This document shows positions 8,559 through 19,453 of a stretch of 64,000 nucleotides of DNA, piece by piece. The stretch spans positions 1-64,000 of the forward strand of contig NZ_BJVK01000002.1 in NCBI RefSeq assembly GCF_007989105.1. The letters run 5' to 3'. Below the pieces are notes generated by a model. That model searched no databases. It was not told where the DNA came from and was given only the letters and a program-made list of their open reading frames with translations. Source of the stretch: Lentilactobacillus kefiri. GTDB lineage: Bacteria; Bacillota; Bacilli; Lactobacillales; Lactobacillaceae. Position 1 is the first letter of the stretch, and each line of letters starts with the position of its first letter. Both the position numbers and the translations under genes were made by a program.

Positions 8559-9401
8559 CTATTTTTGATATTTCTTCTTATATTTACCAGGTGAAAGGCC
8601 AACAAGGGTATTAAACGTCCGAATAAAATTACTATAAATTCCAAATCCGGAAGCTTCGCAAACCATTGTGACAGTGTGACCTTCGCGCAAAAGCTGCTTT
8701 GCGAGTTCGATCCGCTTCTCGATGACATACCGATGAATCGACAATCCGGTGTACTTCTTGAAGGATCGATCCAGGTAATTGGGGTTCATGAAGAATTCGT
8801 CCGCAAATGCCGACAAGCTTAGATCACCGGCTAAGTTGTCATCAATGAAGGAAGTGACTTTTTCCAAGAACGGCGGCATGATATTTTTAGGCTGATCTTT
8901 TACGGGATGAACTTCGTTGGCAATGAGTAAAATTTGTGAAAGTAGAATTCGGGCTCTGACGTCACTGCCATATTCAGTTTTATCAAGGGTTGGGATGAGC
9001 TGGTCGCAAAATGCAATATAGTCGTCAATGAAATCTTGATTAAGATTCAAAATATTAACATCTTTATTATCCTGGGTTTTAAAACAGTCAAATAAATCGG
9101 TCTTTGGGGTGGAAAGTTGGTTGATTAAGTCGACTTTGATGTTTAAGAAAATTCTTTCGTATGGGGCCGAACTTTTTGTAACCACCCGATGCCAGACACC
9201 ATTTGGAATTGCGATCAGGTAGCCGGGCTTGATGGGGAATGCTTTATGAGGGGTGTAGAAAGTTACATCACCTGAGATGAATAAAATGAGTTCAATATGG
9301 TTTGTATGTTGATGAAAGGGACTGTCGTGATGACGGCTTCGATTATGGGAACAAACAATATCTGTTGGAAGCGTTCCGTCCAATGGTAAATCAATAATCA
9401 T
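8559..9401 (-). CDS. AraC family transcriptional regulator with cupin sensor
   Basis: A 280-residue regulator. Residues about 20-100 form a cupin sugar-sensing barrel (HHDSPFHQHTNHIELILF, then PGYLIAIPNGVWHRV). Residues about 180-278 hold two helix-turn-helix motifs of the AraC/XylS type (LSLSAFADEFFMNPNYLDRSFKKYTG, shown here only as landmarks LSAFADEF and GLSPGKYKK). It is divergent from the SGNH esterase. A 59-bp sequence in the shared intergenic region recurs before the GPH symporter, which makes it the probable binding site. I infer activation by a glucuronoxylan-derived sugar; the ligand is not proven. Confidence 0.88.
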   Translation of the reverse strand: MIIDLPLDGTLPTDIVCSHNRSRHHDSPFHQHTNHIELILFISGDVTFYTPHKAFPIKPGYLIAIPNGVWHRVVTKSSAPYERIFLNIKVDLINQLSTPKTDLFDCFKTQDNKDVNILNLNQDFIDDYIAFCDQLIPTLDKTEYGSDVRARILLSQILLIANEVHPVKDQPKNIMPPFLEKVTSFIDDNLAGDLSLSAFADEFFMNPNYLDRSFKKYTGLSIHRYVIEKRIELAKQLLREGHTVTMVCEASGFGIYSNFIRTFNTLVGLSPGKYKKKYQK

Positions 9402-9474: not shown

Positions 9475-9623
9475 CCAATTGTACAGAAATATTGAAGCTA
9501 AGTAAACGGAATGCGCTGTTTGCTGGCAGGAGATTTGGCTATTTGTCAAGATAGTGGATGAAATATGATGGAATCGATACTGCTGTTTTGACTAACCAGA
9601 TAAAAGTCAAAGGGGGAAACTGC

Positions 9624-10298
9624 ATGTTGTTTGATAATGATTACTTTAGTGACAAAGTGATTAATTGTTTTAGTGATTCAACCACTTGGGGCGATGACAG
9701 CACAGGAGGCGGCGGAAACGGTATTTCCTGGACGTCTCATTTACAGGAACTGATTCCGTTCAAAAAGGTTAACAACTTTGGCAAAAAAGGTTCCCGGATT
9801 GCTGTCTGTTCGGACCGTGAGGATAGTTTTGTTGAACGGTATTTGGATATGGATAAAGACGCCGACTATATTGTTGTGTTTGGTGGCGTTAATGATTTCG
9901 TCAATAATGTCCCGCTGGGAAGTATCGATAAAAATGATCCGCACACGTTCCTTGGGGCACTTGATACCATTATTAATGGATTAAACGATCAGTATCCAAA
10001 CGCGACATTAGTCTTTATGACACCTACCAAGACTTCCTTTGCCCATTCGAAGGAACCTTATCCCAATTCGTTTCAGAAAAATCAAGCCGGCCATACCCAG
10101 GGTGATTATGCCTCCGCGATGATTGAGATTTGTCATCACTATAGTATTCCGGTAATTGATTTGTTTAATATAAGTGGGATTTCACCATTCTTGGCGAATA
10201 GTGAACGTTATATGCCGGATGGCACCCATTACAGTCCGCTGGGATACGAAAAGTTAGCTCATCGTATCGTGGGCGAGCTGTTCAGGTACTTAATTTAG
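9624..10298 (+). CDS. Cytoplasmic SGNH/GDSL-type esterase
   Basis: A 224-residue SGNH hydrolase, probably an acetyl esterase acting on imported oligosaccharides. Block I is CFSDSTTWGDD with the nucleophile serine, block III is GGVNDF and block V is DGTHYSPLGYE with the catalytic Asp-His pair. There is no signal peptide. An in-frame ATG lies upstream at 9558, but 9624 has AAAGGGGG eight bases before it and starts just ahead of the first conserved block. The gene lies between two copies of the putative AraC operator and before the GPH symporter, so a role in deacetylating acetyl-xylan fragments is inferred from context, not from sequence. Confidence 0.83.
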   Translation: MLFDNDYFSDKVINCFSDSTTWGDDSTGGGGNGISWTSHLQELIPFKKVNNFGKKGSRIAVCSDREDSFVERYLDMDKDADYIVVFGGVNDFVNNVPLGSIDKNDPHTFLGALDTIINGLNDQYPNATLVFMTPTKTSFAHSKEPYPNSFQKNQAGHTQGDYASAMIEICHHYSIPVIDLFNISGISPFLANSERYMPDGTHYSPLGYEKLAHRIVGELFRYLI

Positions 10299-10592: not shown

Positions 10593-10623
10593 AAATATTT
10601 ACGTAATCATGGGAGGTTACAAA

Positions 10624-12219
10624 ATGGACAATCAAAAGCAAGTTGTTCACGACGGTTGGGATGAATATGCCAACAAGAGAATTTATCAAAGTCGTGAGCC
10701 AATTGGAATTTGGAGATCATTAGGTTTCGGTGTCTTCTCATTCTTTAGTATTTCAATGCAAGGTTTAGTTGGTGCTTGGTTGATGTTCTTCTACACCACA
10801 TTTGCCGGCTTAACAGCTGGACAAGGTGCTACTATCTTCCTGATCGGTCGTGTGGCTGATGCCATTGTTTCACTGGTCATGGGTAATATTTCGGATAACA
10901 TTTACAAGTACAAGCTTGGCCGGATGTTTGGTCGTCGACACATCTTCATTTTGATTGCGGCTCCATCAGTATTAGTTGCGATCACAATGTGGGTTGCCGG
11001 GATGAGCTTCTGGTACTACTTGGTTACTTACCTTATCGTTACTGTCTTGATGTCAACACTTCAAATTCCTTGGGAAACTCTTCCAAACGAAATGACTAAA
11101 GACTTTAACGAACGTACCAAGATGTCAACTACTCAAATGGTTCTTGCCGGATTAGGTGGAATGTTAACCCAATTCGTTCCAGCACAATTATTCAAGTTCT
11201 TCCCTAAGACTTCACCAGAACCATATATTTTAATGCAGGTTATCTTCTCTGTTGCCACATTCTTCTTAGTATTAGTTACTTACCATACAACTTGGGAACA
11301 TTTTGTTACCAAAGCAGAAGCTAAGAAGCTTGAAGCAGAAGCCCTTGCAGATAACAATGGTCAAAAACCAAACTTGAAGTCAGAGTTAAAGAATTACTTC
11401 TCAACCTTCAAGATCAAGACATTCCGTCTTCACATGGGTATTTACTTAAGTTCATACTTCGCAACAATTCTTTTCTCAACTGTGTTTGTTTACTACATTG
11501 TTTATGTATTAAAGATGTCAACTAGTACTTCAGGATTCTTACAATCATTGAGTATTGTATCTATCCCAGTTACCATTATCGCTGGGTTCGCGGTTACCAA
11601 GTTCACTTACCGTTCACTTTACCTGTTCGGCTACTCATTGATCTTGATTAGTGCCGCCAACTGGGCATTCGTTGCCTTAACTCGTCCAGCCCACATGATG
11701 GTTTGGTTAATTGTTGGTATGTCATTCTATGAAGTTGGTCTGTACATCTTGTACTTCGCTCCATGGAACGTCTTCCCATTCATTCCTGATTTGGATACTT
11801 TGGTTACGGGTAAAAACCGTGCCGGATTATTCGCCTCAGTTATGACCTTTATCAACCAAATCAGTCAAGGTTTGGCATCAGTTGTTGCCGGATACTTACT
11901 TGACTTTGCACACTTCCGTCAATCAGCTAGTGGTGCCGTATCACAGCCTGCCAGTGCTACCAACATGATTATCTTCATTGTTTCCGGTGGTGTTGGATTC
12001 ATGATCTTATTGGCTATGTTCTTCGCCGCACGTTTCCACTTAAGCAAGAAGACATTTAAAGTTCTTGCCCAAGAATTGGGTCGTCTCCAAAAGGGTGGCA
12101 GCATGAAAGATGTTGACCCACACACTAAGGCCGTTTGTGAAGACTTAACTGGTGTGAAATATGATTCAATTGATTTCTGGAAGAAGAATGATCAAGCAAA
12201 ACCAAGTGTTAAAAACTAA
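10624..12219 (+). CDS. GPH family (glycoside-pentoside-hexuronide) cation symporter
   Basis: A 531-residue, 12-TM secondary transporter of the GPH family within the major facilitator superfamily. Family landmarks are FSISMQGLVGAWLMFFY in TM1-TM2 and IGRVADAIVSLVMGNISD in the first cytoplasmic loop. A hydrophilic segment of ~35 residues (EAKKLEAEALADNN region) separates the halves. The C-terminal ~50 residues are soluble. The start at 10624 is preferred over 10609 because GGGAGG lies at the correct spacing. With a GH115-like enzyme and two esterases downstream, the most likely cargo is acetylated aldouronic or xylo-oligosaccharide, or free hexuronide. Putative AraC and cre sites lie upstream. 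Confidence 0.87.
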   Translation: MDNQKQVVHDGWDEYANKRIYQSREPIGIWRSLGFGVFSFFSISMQGLVGAWLMFFYTTFAGLTAGQGATIFLIGRVADAIVSLVMGNISDNIYKYKLGRMFGRRHIFILIAAPSVLVAITMWVAGMSFWYYLVTYLIVTVLMSTLQIPWETLPNEMTKDFNERTKMSTTQMVLAGLGGMLTQFVPAQLFKFFPKTSPEPYILMQVIFSVATFFLVLVTYHTTWEHFVTKAEAKKLEAEALADNNGQKPNLKSELKNYFSTFKIKTFRLHMGIYLSSYFATILFSTVFVYYIVYVLKMSTSTSGFLQSLSIVSIPVTIIAGFAVTKFTYRSLYLFGYSLILISAANWAFVALTRPAHMMVWLIVGMSFYEVGLYILYFAPWNVFPFIPDLDTLVTGKNRAGLFASVMTFINQISQGLASVVAGYLLDFAHFRQSASGAVSQPASATNMIIFIVSGGVGFMILLAMFFAARFHLSKKTFKVLAQELGRLQKGGSMKDVDPHTKAVCEDLTGVKYDSIDFWKKNDQAKPSVKN

Positions 12220-12259: not shown

Positions 12260-12622
12260 ATGGCTGATAATAATGACTCAAGCTGGAAAGAGGCACTTAA
12301 ATCAAAAGATGCCTTTGCCGACTTTATCACTGATTACTTTAAAAAGAACAAAGAATTAACGGATTCATATGATATTCCATCATATTACGAGCATTATACT
12401 GTTCATCTGGACAGTCATGATGGCATTGTCATCACACTTGTTACCGGAGTCAATCAAGTAGGCGAGAGTGCTGCTTCTGCGCTTCCATTTAAGCAAAAGG
12501 AAACGATGAGCATTGAAGACTTCCGAAACTTGATTCTCCACAAAAAGTTTGCCGATCAGAATATGTCACTTGCTGATGTATTCCAGACGGTGGCAGGAGT
12601 TCCAGATTCAGACAGCAAATAA
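12260..12622 (+). CDS. Uncharacterised 120-residue protein, tandem paralog A
   Basis: I do not recognise this family. It is a soluble, acidic protein without signal peptide, TM segment or catalytic motif. It starts MADNNDSSWKEALKSKDAF and shares most of its length with the next gene, including SYDIPSYYEHY in the middle and KKFADQNMSLADVFQTVAGV near the end. RBS GAGGGGAG precedes the ATG. It lies 40 bp after the symporter and before a hairpin, inside the glucuronoxylan locus, so it is probably co-expressed with transport. Possible roles are a transporter-associated or small regulatory subunit, but nothing in the sequence decides this. Confidence 0.75.
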   Translation: MADNNDSSWKEALKSKDAFADFITDYFKKNKELTDSYDIPSYYEHYTVHLDSHDGIVITLVTGVNQVGESAASALPFKQKETMSIEDFRNLILHKKFADQNMSLADVFQTVAGVPDSDSK

Positions 12623-12656
12623 ATTATCGTGTTATGAAAACTGATTCATAGCTCGG

Positions 12657-12707
12657 CGAGGCGGCTATAACGAGGCAAATACCTTGCATAGCCGCCTTGT
12701 TGTTTTT
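12657..12707 (+). terminator. Stem-loop between the two small paralogs
   Basis: Arms GAGGCGGCTAT (12658-12668) and ATAGCCGCCTT (12688-12698), with an inner CGAGG/CCTTG pair, are followed by TTGTTGTTTTT. It is a terminator or partial attenuator in mid-operon, which would lower expression of the second paralog and GH115-like gene relative to the transporter. Confidence 0.7.
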
Positions 12708-12741
12708 GAAACATTTGTTAAATATGAAAGAAGTTGAAATG

Positions 12742-13110
12742 ATGGCAGATACAAATAGTGATTGGAAAAAAGCTTTGAAATCAAAAGAGACATTTCATGA
12801 TTTCATTATTAATTATTTTAAGGAACATCAAGAATTGACTGGATCTTATGATATCCCATCATATTATGAACATTATGTTGTTAAGTTGGATAAACATGAG
12901 AAGCTCATCATTACTTTAACGACCGGAATGAATCAATCAGGTGACAACGTATCGATCCCACTTCCAATGAAGGAAAAGGAAAAGATGACGATTGAAGATT
13001 TCCGAACACTGATTTTGAACAAGAAGTTTGCCGATCAGAATATGTCATTGGCAGATGTCTTTCAAACAGTTGCCGGAGTTCAAAGCACCAACGATGATAA
13101 TTCTAAATAA
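12742..13110 (+). CDS. Uncharacterised 122-residue protein, tandem paralog B
   Basis: Paralog of the gene at 12260. Both keep WK(E/K)ALKSK(D/E), SYDIPSYYEHY, the IEDFR motif and the C-terminal block KKFADQNMSLADVFQTVAGV. The middle (VNQVGESAASALPFKQ against MNQSGDNVSIPLPMKE) has diverged. The longer reading from 12697 is rejected because 12742 aligns exactly with the paralog's start; a second ATG at 12739 is equally possible. GAAAGAAG upstream serves as RBS. It lies 26 bp before the GH115-like gene. The near-invariant C-terminal block points to a shared binding surface. Function unknown. Confidence 0.75.
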   Translation: MADTNSDWKKALKSKETFHDFIINYFKEHQELTGSYDIPSYYEHYVVKLDKHEKLIITLTTGMNQSGDNVSIPLPMKEKEKMTIEDFRTLILNKKFADQNMSLADVFQTVAGVQSTNDDNSK

Positions 13111-13136: not shown

Positions 13137-15188
13137 TTGTCTAATAAAGAATTTACAATTTCACAGGGGACAAAAGTTGATGCCCAAGATTTTCGTAACA
13201 CGGTTTTGAAGTATGCCTGCGAGATTCTGCAACGCGATATTAACCGAGTTACCACTGAAAAAGATGCCGACAATACAATTTATTTAACTGTTGATCCTCA
13301 AGCACCTGTCGACGGTGATGATTATCAAATCACACTTTCGTCTCCTGATAAAGTAACTGTTTCCTCAAGGACTTCGCTTGGTGTCATGTATGGTGCATTG
13401 GCGATTTCTCGAGATGTCCTTAAAATTGATGACTTTTGGTACTGGATGGACACTGTTCCAACCGTTCAAAAGACGATTCAGATGACCAACTTTGACATGC
13501 ATATTCCGAATTATCAAACCGAATATCGTGGCTGGTTTGTCAATGATGAGTTGCTTATTCGTGGTTGGAAAGATCATGATTCTCAACGTTTTATTTGGCA
13601 GCGAGTCTTTGAAACCGCCTTGCGTGTGGGATGCAATGTGATTGTTCCCGGTACCGATGTTCAATCACAGATTAACCGTAATCCAGCTAAAGAGTTTGGC
13701 TTAATGATTGCCCAACATCATGCGGAACCACTTGGTGCCAAGATGTTTGCCCGTGAATATCCTGAACTTGAAGCATCATTCTTAAAGTATCCTGATTTAT
13801 TCAGAAAACTTTGGCGTGACGCAATCAACGAACAAAAAGGAACTCCAACCATTTACAGCTTGGGATTCCGTGGCCAAGGAGACAAGCCGTTCTGGGAAGA
13901 TGATACCAGCAGAACATGGGATGACAAGGCAATTGCCGATGTCGTCAACGGTGTCATCAAAGAACAGTATGACATGATTAAAGAATTGGATCCGGGTGCT
14001 CCTATGGCCCTCAACGTCTATGGCGAATTGGCCGGCCTTTACAAAAAAGGCTTGGTTGATGTTCCGGACGATTTGATTGAAATCTGGGCCGACAGTGGAT
14101 ATGGCAAGATGGTTTCAAGAAGACAAGGTTTGGATAATCCACGTTCACCATTATTGGATATTCCAAATCCACATCATCGTAAGCGTGGCCTTTACTATCA
14201 CGTTGCCTTCCATGATTTGCAAGCTTCAAACTTCTTAGGTTTACTTTCAAACAGCCCAGAATTTGTCTCATCAGAATTAATGAAGGCTCGAAGTAAAGGG
14301 CTTGATACGCTTGAATTGGTTAATACCGGAAACATCAAGCCACACGTTCTTTATTTGCGTGAAGTTGCCAAAACTTGGGTCAAGGGATACACTGCTCGTA
14401 GTAACGATGAGATCCTTGATGACTACGTTAATAATTACTATTCCGAACATCAAAAAGAGATTGTTTCATTGTACGAAGATTATTGGAAATCCGTTGTTCA
14501 ATACGGTACCCATTCAGATGAAACTGCCGGTGATGAACTTTCACCATTCTTGATTAGAAGAATTATCAAGACCTGGTTGGGCGGCAAGGACAAGCTCCCT
14601 GATGCAGGTTGGATTGTTGGCGATGATTCATTGGCTGACGGTGTTAAAAAGATTGATGGGATGATCACACCAAAGCTTCCTGGTTGGGAAGAATTAGTGC
14701 TCAATCTTAAGAAATTGATGCTGAATCTCAATCAACAAGATGCCAAGACACTCTATGGTGATTTGTATCTGAGCACCCTTTATCAGGCTGATGGCCTCAA
14801 AGCCTTACACCTGGTTATTCAAGCTTATGAATTATCAATGGCTGCCAAGAAGGATGACGACTATTTGAAGCCATTCCTGCTTGCTGATGAAGCCTATCAC
14901 ACAATGGATGAAATTAACTTTGCTCAAAGTCATCACAAGTCAACGAAGTGGTACGACTTCTACAAGAATGATGGTTATGATGACATGCCTCTTACGGCAA
15001 TCAAGCTTCGATTCTTACGTCATTACTTAAGAACCCTTGGTGACACTGCCGATGAGGATGACTGGGAGCGTCGCTTTATTAAAGCACCCGGTGAGGCTCG
15101 TGTCATGACACTGTGGACAACCGCACGAGAATTATCGGATGATGATCTTGCAAAGAAATTACGTGAACGTTTAATTGACAAGCTTTAA
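13137..15188 (+). CDS. GH115-like alpha-glucuronidase
   Basis: A 683-residue cytoplasmic enzyme expected to release (4-O-methyl-)glucuronic acid from xylan fragments. Landmarks I associate with GH115: SLGFRGQGDKPFWED (family GMRGDGD), VPDDLIEIWADSGYGK (family PDDVTLLWxDDNxG), GLYYHVAFHD and LVNTGNIKPHVLYL (family VNVGDLKPxE). GH115 enzymes are usually over 800 residues; this one lacks most of the C-terminal part, so it is a short form. There is no signal peptide, so it acts on imported oligosaccharides. The start is TTG at 13137 with GGAAAGGAAG just upstream. GH67 is an alternative, but the motifs fit it less well. Confidence 0.78.
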   Translation: MSNKEFTISQGTKVDAQDFRNTVLKYACEILQRDINRVTTEKDADNTIYLTVDPQAPVDGDDYQITLSSPDKVTVSSRTSLGVMYGALAISRDVLKIDDFWYWMDTVPTVQKTIQMTNFDMHIPNYQTEYRGWFVNDELLIRGWKDHDSQRFIWQRVFETALRVGCNVIVPGTDVQSQINRNPAKEFGLMIAQHHAEPLGAKMFAREYPELEASFLKYPDLFRKLWRDAINEQKGTPTIYSLGFRGQGDKPFWEDDTSRTWDDKAIADVVNGVIKEQYDMIKELDPGAPMALNVYGELAGLYKKGLVDVPDDLIEIWADSGYGKMVSRRQGLDNPRSPLLDIPNPHHRKRGLYYHVAFHDLQASNFLGLLSNSPEFVSSELMKARSKGLDTLELVNTGNIKPHVLYLREVAKTWVKGYTARSNDEILDDYVNNYYSEHQKEIVSLYEDYWKSVVQYGTHSDETAGDELSPFLIRRIIKTWLGGKDKLPDAGWIVGDDSLADGVKKIDGMITPKLPGWEELVLNLKKLMLNLNQQDAKTLYGDLYLSTLYQADGLKALHLVIQAYELSMAAKKDDDYLKPFLLADEAYHTMDEINFAQSHHKSTKWYDFYKNDGYDDMPLTAIKLRFLRHYLRTLGDTADEDDWERRFIKAPGEARVMTLWTTARELSDDDLAKKLRERLIDKL

Positions 15189-15233
15189 CGTGTTGAATCA
15201 CGATAAACTGTCAAAATGAGAGAGGAGAAGAAA

Positions 15234-16052
15234 ATGGAAACTGAACGGAAACCACTAACAATCATTTCAGCTGGTCAATCGAATATTGATGGTCGAGTTC
15301 CAATTGCGGAACTGCCAAAGCCAATTTCATTACCATTAGCTAACTGCCATTACTGCAGTAATTACACACCAAATCATGAGGATGGAGTCTTTCAAGATTC
15401 CATTAAAGTCAGTGACTTGTCTGATAATCGCTGGGGATTTGACTTAGTAACCTACTATTACCTGACTCATTTAGCAAAATATGATTTGTATGTGATGAAG
15501 TGTTCTGAGGGTGGAACTTCAGTTGCTCCTACCGGTGAAGGCGGCCACCAAGGCCACAACCACTGGACCACTGAAATCGACAAATTGGATAGTCCAAGCA
15601 ACTCACTACTGCTTCAATTCAAGCAAATTATTGAAGCCTGCGAGAAAAACGCTAAGCACAATCTCGATGTTCAAGCCATGGTTTGGCATCAAGGTGAAGG
15701 CGACCGAGCTTCCTTCTCACAAGAAGCAGCTGATAACTACTACCAGAACCTTAAGGCAGTATTTGAAACATGCAGAGGCTACGTCAATAAGCCTGATTTG
15801 CCAATTTTCTGTGGAACAGTAAGTCACAATTCCGAGCAATACGATCCAAAAGTTGAAGCCGGATTGCTCAAGATTGCCAAGGAAGATCCAAATGTCCATG
15901 TTATCGATATGCAAAAAGGCACATTGCTTGACCAATTCCATTTTGATCCTAAGTCCAGCATGTACTTTGGAAAAGCCATTTATGATGCAATGATCGATAA
16001 GCATGTGATTGAAGGACCACGTGTTGATATTGGTGAGTATCGAGTATATTAA
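15234..16052 (+). CDS. SASA/CE6-type carbohydrate acetyl esterase
   Basis: A 272-residue cytoplasmic protein of the sialate O-acetylesterase/CE6-like SGNH superfamily. The serine block is ISAGQSNIDGR, the second conserved block is VWHQGEGDRAS and the Asp-His pair is in LLDQFHFDP. There is no signal peptide. It follows the GH115-like gene by 45 bp and precedes a terminator. I infer removal of O-acetyl groups from xylo- or aldouronic oligosaccharides, complementing the unrelated-looking esterase at 9624. An in-frame ATG at 15216 exists, but AGAGGAG overlaps that region and positions ribosomes at 15234. Confidence 0.82.
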   Translation: METERKPLTIISAGQSNIDGRVPIAELPKPISLPLANCHYCSNYTPNHEDGVFQDSIKVSDLSDNRWGFDLVTYYYLTHLAKYDLYVMKCSEGGTSVAPTGEGGHQGHNHWTTEIDKLDSPSNSLLLQFKQIIEACEKNAKHNLDVQAMVWHQGEGDRASFSQEAADNYYQNLKAVFETCRGYVNKPDLPIFCGTVSHNSEQYDPKVEAGLLKIAKEDPNVHVIDMQKGTLLDQFHFDPKSSMYFGKAIYDAMIDKHVIEGPRVDIGEYRVY

Positions 16053-18058: not shown

Positions 18059-19453
18059 TTACTTTAATCCCACATAGCCAGTCTTATCAATCAATCTTTG
18101 TCCCTGATTGGTTTGTAGCCAGTGAATCAATTTAGTACTGTTTTGACTTGGATTGTCCCGTGTAATCGCGTAAAAGTGGCCAACCAGTGGATATTTTCCG
18201 TTGCGGATATTTGCGGCAGTTGGGGTAACCCCATTAATCTTGATGAGCTTAATCTTTTTGTTATGCTTCATTTGAGTTGCGTAAAATCTGAATGAGTAAC
18301 CAATTGCATTTGAATGATTATTATAACCGGCAATTTCGTCAATTAAAAATCCCATGCCATCCGTCGCTTGATATCTCAAAGGCTTCACTAGCTTTTTATC
18401 TTTCATGACTAGTTGTTCCATTGCAGTCTGGCTTCCAGATCCTTCTGCTCTTTGGAAAGGTTGAATAGGGCTGAATTTACCACCAACATTTGACCAAAAG
18501 ATGGTTTTTCGTTGGTAGATCGATTGAATCTGAGAAATCGTTAAATTATTGACTGGATTTTTCTTGTTCACGAAGAAAACAAAAGCTTCGGTACCAAGTT
18601 TAGTCAGTCGTAAGTGAATATGGGCTTTTTTGGCAGCCTTATATTGAGCAGGCGAAGGTTGCGCCATAAAGGTAATATCTGATTTGTGCTGAATCAAACT
18701 GTTAAATGCCTTTGGGGTTGTATCTACCCGAATCATCTTAGCAGCCTGCTTGGCATTCATTCCAGAATACGTTGCCTGGGCAGCTGCAGAATAGATTGGA
18801 TAAAGTGCAGTCGCACCGTTTAACCGTGGGTAGTTGTGGGTAATCCGAAGCGTGGCAGGCGTCTTTAATCGAGCCAGAGCCTTATTTTTCATAAATGGCC
18901 GATATTGTCGAAGACTAAGTTCACTGGACATCCCATAATCCTGAGTAAATCGCAGGTTTGTCGCAAAATGCTGATAGAAGGGTAACAAACTTACGAGAAC
19001 TAAAATGAGTAAGCCACCACTTTTTCTCTTGTCTAATTTGGGCAGCCTGTGCGTTTTAATCTGATAGATCACCATCCCCATGATTGATGACCAAAACGTT
19101 GCAATGAACATCCAGCCTAAATTGTGGTACATCATAAAGCCACCAGCAGCGATCGTTGAAATGTTATAAGGAATAATCAAAAATGGGTAGTAGATCGAAA
19201 TCTGATAAAGATTATAGCGGTTTACGATCAAAATAATCGAAAAAATACCAAAGTAATAGATGAAACCAATGATAAGAGCTCGAATTTCCGTTGAAAAATC
19301 AGAAATGGCGAAATTACTGTTGTAGCGATACCAATAAAGGCAGTTCAACAATAAAGCCGGGATCATTGCCCACCACCAACCAAGCCCAAAAGCTCCGGCT
19401 GAACCCACAATGAGTGGTGAAACAACCAAGCAGCGGAATAAGAGCCATTTCAT
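18059..19453 (-). CDS. Membrane-anchored PstS-like substrate-binding protein
   Basis: A 464-residue protein of unusual layout. Residues 1-165 carry about six hydrophobic segments. A short basic loop (LPKLDKRKSG) precedes the last of them. Residues ~200-464 form a phosphate-type solute-binding domain: LYPIYSAAAQATY near its start, the PstS-like EGSGSQTAMEQL motif, and LVGHFYAITRDNP near the end. PstS normally has a lipoprotein or cleaved signal, not a polytopic domain. No PstC, PstA or PstB gene is nearby. It may sense or present an oxyanion at the outer face. The ATG has a poor RBS; see the separate finding on an upstream ATT codon. Confidence 0.75.
   Translation of the reverse strand: MKWLLFRCLVVSPLIVGSAGAFGLGWWWAMIPALLLNCLYWYRYNSNFAISDFSTEIRALIIGFIYYFGIFSIILIVNRYNLYQISIYYPFLIIPYNISTIAAGGFMMYHNLGWMFIATFWSSIMGMVIYQIKTHRLPKLDKRKSGGLLILVLVSLLPFYQHFATNLRFTQDYGMSSELSLRQYRPFMKNKALARLKTPATLRITHNYPRLNGATALYPIYSAAAQATYSGMNAKQAAKMIRVDTTPKAFNSLIQHKSDITFMAQPSPAQYKAAKKAHIHLRLTKLGTEAFVFFVNKKNPVNNLTISQIQSIYQRKTIFWSNVGGKFSPIQPFQRAEGSGSQTAMEQLVMKDKKLVKPLRYQATDGMGFLIDEIAGYNNHSNAIGYSFRFYATQMKHNKKIKLIKINGVTPTAANIRNGKYPLVGHFYAITRDNPSQNSTKLIHWLQTNQGQRLIDKTGYVGLK

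Follow-up and report, generated by a model that had tools for sequence, protein, structure and literature searches.

Lentilactobacillus kefiri carries, between the sugar symporter and the glycosidase of a glucuronoxylan operon, two adjacent genes for small soluble proteins. What these proteins are, and why a sugar-utilization operon should hold two of them, is the question addressed here. The operon lies in the window, which is the entire 64,000-nucleotide stretch of contig NZ_BJVK01000002.1 that was analyzed; unprefixed coordinates refer to it. An earlier note, made from the letters of this DNA, had pointed to the pair and suggested that its members could be transporter regulators, chaperones or sugar-binding helpers.

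The paralogous pair and its operon

The operon opens with a divergently transcribed AraC-family regulator (8559–9401, minus strand; PF12833 and PF02311). This is followed on the plus strand by a GDSL esterase (9558–10298; PF13472, E 1.6e-19), a GPH/MFS_2 sugar:cation symporter (10609–12219; PF13347, E 6.6e-41, with TIGR00792 under its cut-off), family member 1, family member 2, a GH115 glycosidase (13137–15188; PF15979, E 7.8e-53) and a SASA-type acetyl esterase (15216–16052; PF03629, E 2e-19). The Pfam assignments of the symporter and GH115 confirm that the pair lies between a transporter and a glucuronidase gene, as the earlier note had proposed. Member 1 (12260–12622, plus strand) begins 40 bp behind the symporter gene and encodes 120 residues with a pI of 4.8. 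Member 2 (12742–13110, plus strand) encodes 122 residues with a pI of 5.5, its start being picked by homology: the ATG at 12742 is the best candidate, 12739 is also possible, and comparison with homologues makes the TTG at 12697, where the listed open reading frame starts, unlikely.

The two members are tandem paralogues that are 68% identical over 117 residues. Our own alignment has 79 identical columns out of 123, with SYDIPSYYEHY and KKFADQNMSLADVFQTVAGV as unbroken runs, and the C-terminal block of 20 residues is the same in both. The open reading frames and the alignment thus agree with the initial description of tandem, soluble paralogues of about 120 residues that share SYDIPSYYEHY and a C-terminal block. 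The accompanying claim of selection is supported by low dN/dS, which was attempted on eight gene pairs and was computable for three of the eight by NG86 and for three of the eight by YN00. The NG86 values were 0.024 and 0.084 for two orthologue pairs and 0.099 for the window paralogues, and those from YN00 were 0.075, 0.148 and 0.173; all are rough, because dS was 0.7–2.6 where computed, otherwise not computable, and often saturated, and late starts shorten two of the rows used. Further along the window, the minus strand at 18059–19453 encodes a protein of 464 residues whose N-terminal part is hydrophobic and whose C-terminal part resembles, by eye, phosphate-binding proteins of the PstS type.

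The hairpin between the paralogues

The two genes are separated by a strong hairpin followed by a run of five T residues (12654–12702, plus strand), a possible terminator or attenuator. The stretch folds at -40.3 kcal/mol compared with a shuffle mean of -23.4 (z -5.1; 0 of 200 shuffles as stable), which bears out the terminator-like hairpin reported between the genes. The consensus terminator scan is without it, returning five other sites where 5.8 are expected by chance, and a looser scan does list it. The hairpin was also considered as a repeated element and this was ruled out, since its sequence is single-copy in the genome save for one 17-base match.

Similar hairpins fold at the equivalent site in L. 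otakiensis and L. sunkii, the T run being lost in L. sunkii, and in L. parakefiri visual inspection suggests an equivalent hairpin in which a G-C pair is replaced by A-T. Across the family, terminator-like sites occur 3' of 43 of 71 members, compared with 181 of 1420 shuffles; this excess mostly reflects the many members that end a transcript. Inspection by eye of the stretches up- and downstream of members showed no shared operator, and Rfam returned 0 matches in the window and five other loci.

A family nearly restricted to Lentilactobacillus

The paralogues belong to a protein family that is unnamed and whose finding is real. It is nearly restricted to Lentilactobacillus and consists of mostly acidic, soluble proteins of about 115 residues. 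The L. kefiri genome holds four copies. A protein search of 60 relatives gave 74 matches in 18 genomes, with one to eight copies in each, and all 18 are among the 24 genomes of the same genus. Wider profile searches used genome sets of the taxonomic family, order, class and phylum that are samples and overlap each other. Here, a 68-row profile matched 21 of the 397 family-level genomes, spread over three genera: 18 from the same genus, two from genus g13, and a single weaker match, a phage gene, in genus g4. A 17-row profile matched three of 395 genomes of the order, all of the same genus, and a 75-row profile matched no genome but that of L. kefiri itself in the samples of the class (398 genomes) and the phylum (338 genomes). 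Member 1 found no match by tblastn in plasmids or in phages.

The counts below refer to 73 members, that is, to the open reading frames found around the matches. A decayed copy with three internal stops, one TGA and two TAA (L019, on G019:C123), is among the 74 matches and not among the 73, while the fragment L074 is counted in the 73 and left out of the alignments. The 68-row alignment lacks L074, L051, L056, L091 and the L. otakiensis copy of member 2. The 75-row alignment comprises 69 members, three proteins from genus g13 and three from phages, and lacks L051, L091, L074 and the same L. otakiensis copy; ten of its rows begin a few residues late, making conservation values at the start of the protein less reliable.

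In a tree of the family, which rests on few columns and has several long branches, the window pair falls into two sister groups, that of member 2 having five rows and that of member 1 having 15. As the pair is split in this manner, the duplication is older than several species.

The profile-HMM and structure-based searches that the earlier note proposed were run. They yielded phage homologues, described below, but no named family, and structural neighbours that are weak (Z ≤5). At E 0.001 or better, no named family was returned by Pfam, NCBIfam, PHROGs or PADLOC. The best Pfam matches were HEPN pEK499_p136 (E 0.0015, in 5 of 68 members) and MenC_N (E 0.016, in 10 of 68), the best PHROGs matches were scattered at E 0.006–0.01 (0.0082 in one of the scans), and PADLOC gave at best E 0.0017, from four unrelated models that each appeared in one to four of the 68. 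NCBIfam had no match to the window pair. A literature search, judged by titles, found no paper on this protein family.

Predicted fold and charge

AlphaFold2 models of member 1 (pLDDT 74.3) and of a short stand-alone member (pLDDT 68.5), built on overlapping alignments, both have the order alpha2-beta4-alpha. Foldseek returned nothing at E 0.001 for either model against PDB, where the best match of the member 1 model was Borrelia Pur-alpha (0.021), and nothing at that threshold against BFVD (best 0.0041). VIA-align placed Whirly, PUR or MRP chains at ranks 1–8 for member 1 and Whirly or PUR chains at ranks 1–8 for the stand-alone member, with two PC4 homologues lower. The Z-scores of these neighbours are weak at 4.3–5.0, which is below the best Z of 7–8 that is typical, by the VIA-align notes, of models without a clear match, and a methyltransferase follows at rank 9 with 4.3–4.4. 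MRP1/2 are among the proteins with a PC4-like fold. The grouping of PUR, Whirly and PC4 under this fold is given in passages of PMC7990775, which also report that PUR domains have the same fold but no sequence conservation to other such classes. PUR and PC4 Pfam models matched 0 of 68 members at E 1, a weak test given this reported lack of conservation, and a PDB profile search likewise gave no PUR or PC4 chain, returning 1z05 alone, at E 1.7.

The beta4-alpha order predicted for the family resembles that of PC4-like proteins (PUR proteins such as Bpur, Whirly and PC4), which are the best, if weak, structural neighbours of both models at Z ≤5. The family differs in having no sequence match to them, in its acidity and in its extra N-terminal helices; an extra C-terminal helix is predicted in the member 1 model only. 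The models therefore offer a hint of a PC4-like (PUR/Whirly) fold, not membership in it. Across 75 rows the median pI is 5.1, with six rows above 7 and the phage rows at 4.05–4.49. Judged from composition, this acidity speaks against nucleic-acid binding, as it is unusual for plain nucleic-acid binders. Among the PC4-like proteins, Borrelia Bpur is described as a regulator in PMC3764826.

Placement in sugar operons and the neighbouring transporters

The surroundings of all 73 members were examined, a close upstream gene being defined as one on the same strand and ≤150 bp away. Such a gene is present for 31 members, and by raw count all 31 belong to sugar operons. Ten are GPH transporters, nine are MFS_1 and one is of the LacY type. 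The others are two GH30, one GH43, one GH115, one GH127, one GDSL-like gene and five paralogues that themselves lie in such operons. Names were assigned to clusters of neighbours from one Pfam-scanned representative each, and the GDSL/esterase-like cluster is under the Pfam cut-off. Placement changes state six times over 72 rows of the tree, so the 31 placements are related by descent and not independent. In genus g13 there are three such loci in two genomes, with gene names assigned by eye: in two the order is MFS, GH30, member, with 279 and 282 bp separating the member from GH30, and in the third the member lies 22 bp behind a GH127-like gene. The recurrent link to sugar operons is supported both by the 31 of 31 and by these loci in a second genus.

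Of the other 42 members, 21 are preceded by a gene on the opposite strand and 20 by a same-strand gene at 190–948 bp, and one lies at a contig end. Some still lie in or near sugar loci: one (L079:13116) belongs to a GH115-GPH operon, 341 bp after its GPH gene, another follows a GH43-like gene at a distance of 190 bp, and two follow a melibiase-like gene at 393–432 bp. The recurring neighbours of the remaining members include a PPK2 kinase, an MFS gene, a xanthine permease, NUDIX and an MgsA-type ATPase. The earlier note had held that wide occurrence outside carbohydrate loci, with a known and unrelated function, would speak against its reading; members are indeed common outside such loci, but no known function was found there.

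Two further proteins were seen beside stand-alone copies. A conserved 116-residue protein adjoins the copy near a xanthine/uracil permease at four loci, L091–L094 (for example L094:6059-6409, minus strand), and one representative had no Pfam match. A 596-residue protein, also without a Pfam match, lies behind a PPK2-associated copy (L095:6800-8590, plus strand), and its relatives lie behind copies in L067 and L069.

The frequency of transporters as the close upstream gene (20 of 31; GPH 10, MFS_1 9, LacY-type 1) is the basis of the main rival to the expression-tuning role that is proposed below. By analogy, members of the family could adjust uptake as soluble proteins that bind sugar symporters of the MFS type, in the way that SgrT acts on PtsG or unphosphorylated EIIA-Glc on LacY. 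The phage ancestry described in the next section would likewise suit a phage protein whose target is a sugar transporter of the inner membrane, as is thought for prophage-encoded DicB, whose receptor target is the mannose transporter. The likeness to SgrT, EIIA-Glc (on LacY) and DicB is one of description, these being small or soluble proteins that act on sugar transporters. Good precedents are on record: passages of PMC10710835 present SgrT, EIIA-Glc on LacY and HPr on LacS as protein modulators of sugar transporters, and PMC6832061 describes DicB as prophage-encoded and as inhibiting inner-membrane receptor proteins. Against such a modulator, the gene preceding 11 of the 31 members is a glycosidase, an esterase-like gene or a paralogue, the transporter partners are of differing types, many of the other 42 adjoin non-transporters such as PPK2 or the MgsA-type ATPase, and other genera run the GPH-GH115 pair without the family. 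We regard transporter modulation, in both its general and its phage-derived form, as possible if somewhat doubtful.

Relatives in phages

The weaker g4 match (E 5e-6, in one genome of the 397 searched) is a 134-residue gene in G309 that sits among small genes and appears prophage-like by eye. Its product is also present in an IMG/VR contig and is 47.8% identical to SAC12B_0027 (QBJ03816.1) of Lactobacillus phage SAC12B, Herelleviridae. A third phage protein, from IMG/VR contig 2816332607_000003, is 43% identical to the G309 protein. When two phage rows were compared with 68 family rows by hhalign, the probability was 98.3% (E 1.2e-14, 96 columns), which places the homology with SAC12B_0027 over most of its length at the profile level. 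A scan of viral contigs with the 68-row family profile found no relative, and scans with the phage rows did match. Two additional phage proteins were left out of the alignments and counts: L130/L148, which has 35% identity over query residues 22–103 (E 3e-7), and L149/L151, with 44–57% identity over about 45 residues.

The phage proteins have in common with the family a Y(Y/W) strand region and an E-FRQ-L-N-K block. They differ from it in about 16 extra residues before the first strand and in being more acidic. All three relatives (SAC12B_0027, G309 and the IMG/VR protein) sit among small phage genes and are uncharacterised. As judged from these alignments, the family and a phage accessory gene have a common origin.

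This ancestry raises the alternative that the family is phage-related in its function as well, acting in superinfection exclusion, immunity or counter-defence, with its location in sugar operons incidental. The homologues in three phage or prophage contexts, the many stand-alone copies and an expansion restricted to one lineage speak for such a role. On the other side stand the close placement in sugar operons of two genera, the similar locations kept between species and the lack of a convincing PADLOC match (best E 0.0017), and we consider a phage-directed function unlikely.

Operons with and without the gene

Of 397 genomes searched, 22 carry GH115, and they span 10 genera. Within the genus there are 14 GH115 loci in 10 genomes, and 12 of these have a family gene in the same same-strand gene run. 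The 12 include G003:C5, although three genes and a 540-bp gap part the member from GH115 there; G009:C54, which ends at a contig end just behind GH115, is one of the 14 and not of the 12, and at G015:C51 the GH115 locus is without the family. In contrast, none of 12 GH115 loci from other genera, fetched as 7–13 kb and searched with the profile at E 0.1, has the gene, while 11 of these 12 have a GPH homologue nearby. One of them, L184 of genus g55, has an operon of the order AraC-GPH-GH115-SASA in which GPH and GH115 lie 21 bp apart and a family gene is absent. The co-occurrence with GPH/GH115 that was to be checked therefore holds in the genus (12 of 14 loci) and fails in the others (0 of 12), so that the gene is not present wherever the GPH-GH115 pair occurs. 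It is an addition to the operon and no core part of it, probably an added fine-tuning gene.

That the proteins serve the GPH symporter or the GH115 enzyme as a chaperone or obligatory subunit, as the 12 of 14 loci in the genus might suggest, is very unlikely, because the gene is missing from all 12 GH115 loci outside the genus, from the otherwise like operon of L184 and even from G015:C51 within it. The functions first guessed for the pair fared accordingly: the link to sugar operons stands, an obligatory chaperone or helper does not (0 of 12 GH115 loci outside the genus), and a helper required by the symporter or glucuronidase is further disfavoured by the 42 of 73 members that are placed otherwise.

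Two observations concern the symporters themselves. Those at GH115 loci have a common soluble C-terminal tail (LTGVxYDSI) across genera, encoded at 12080–12219 in the window and also in the GPH genes of L184, L185, L186, L188 and L190–L192; this tail was considered as a docking site and dropped, since similar GPH tails are found in genera without the family. In L078 and L194 (G003:C5) a single locus has two GPH genes, of which the first is broken into two open reading frames and followed by a family member.

Proposed role

Set beside what was observed here, namely the family, its spread in the sampled genomes, its phage homology, its operon placement and its absence from the like operons of other genera, the account that we tentatively favour, while holding it short of probable, is that of a phage-related accessory protein that tunes the expression of its operon through a PC4-like fold acting on RNA or ssDNA. 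An expression tuner is proposed because members lie behind differing transporters and glycosidases alike, adjoin hairpins and are absent from like operons elsewhere. The family would have common ancestry with a phage accessory gene and would then have multiplied within Lentilactobacillus. Part of it would have become an extra gene of hemicellulose operons, placed immediately after genes for sugar transporters or glycosidases, where members would commonly precede a hairpin or terminator. The alpha2-beta4-alpha protein, with its predicted PC4-like (PUR/Whirly) resemblance, probably dimerises and may tune operon expression at the RNA or ssDNA level; it would not be a working part of transport or of the glucuronidase.

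A more specific form of expression tuning, in which a domesticated phage fold has multiplied into in-operon modulators, each tuned to one sugar-uptake operon, seems rather improbable to us. Its arrangement would be transporter, modulator, hairpin and glycosidase. If true, a phage takeover or exclusion protein would have been turned into a regulator of carbohydrate use.

An unnamed family is thus defined that has a clear genomic habit and a link to phages, and like glucuronoxylan operons with and without its gene make up a natural control. If these proteins do tune sugar use, they would constitute a nearly genus-specific layer of control in lactobacilli.
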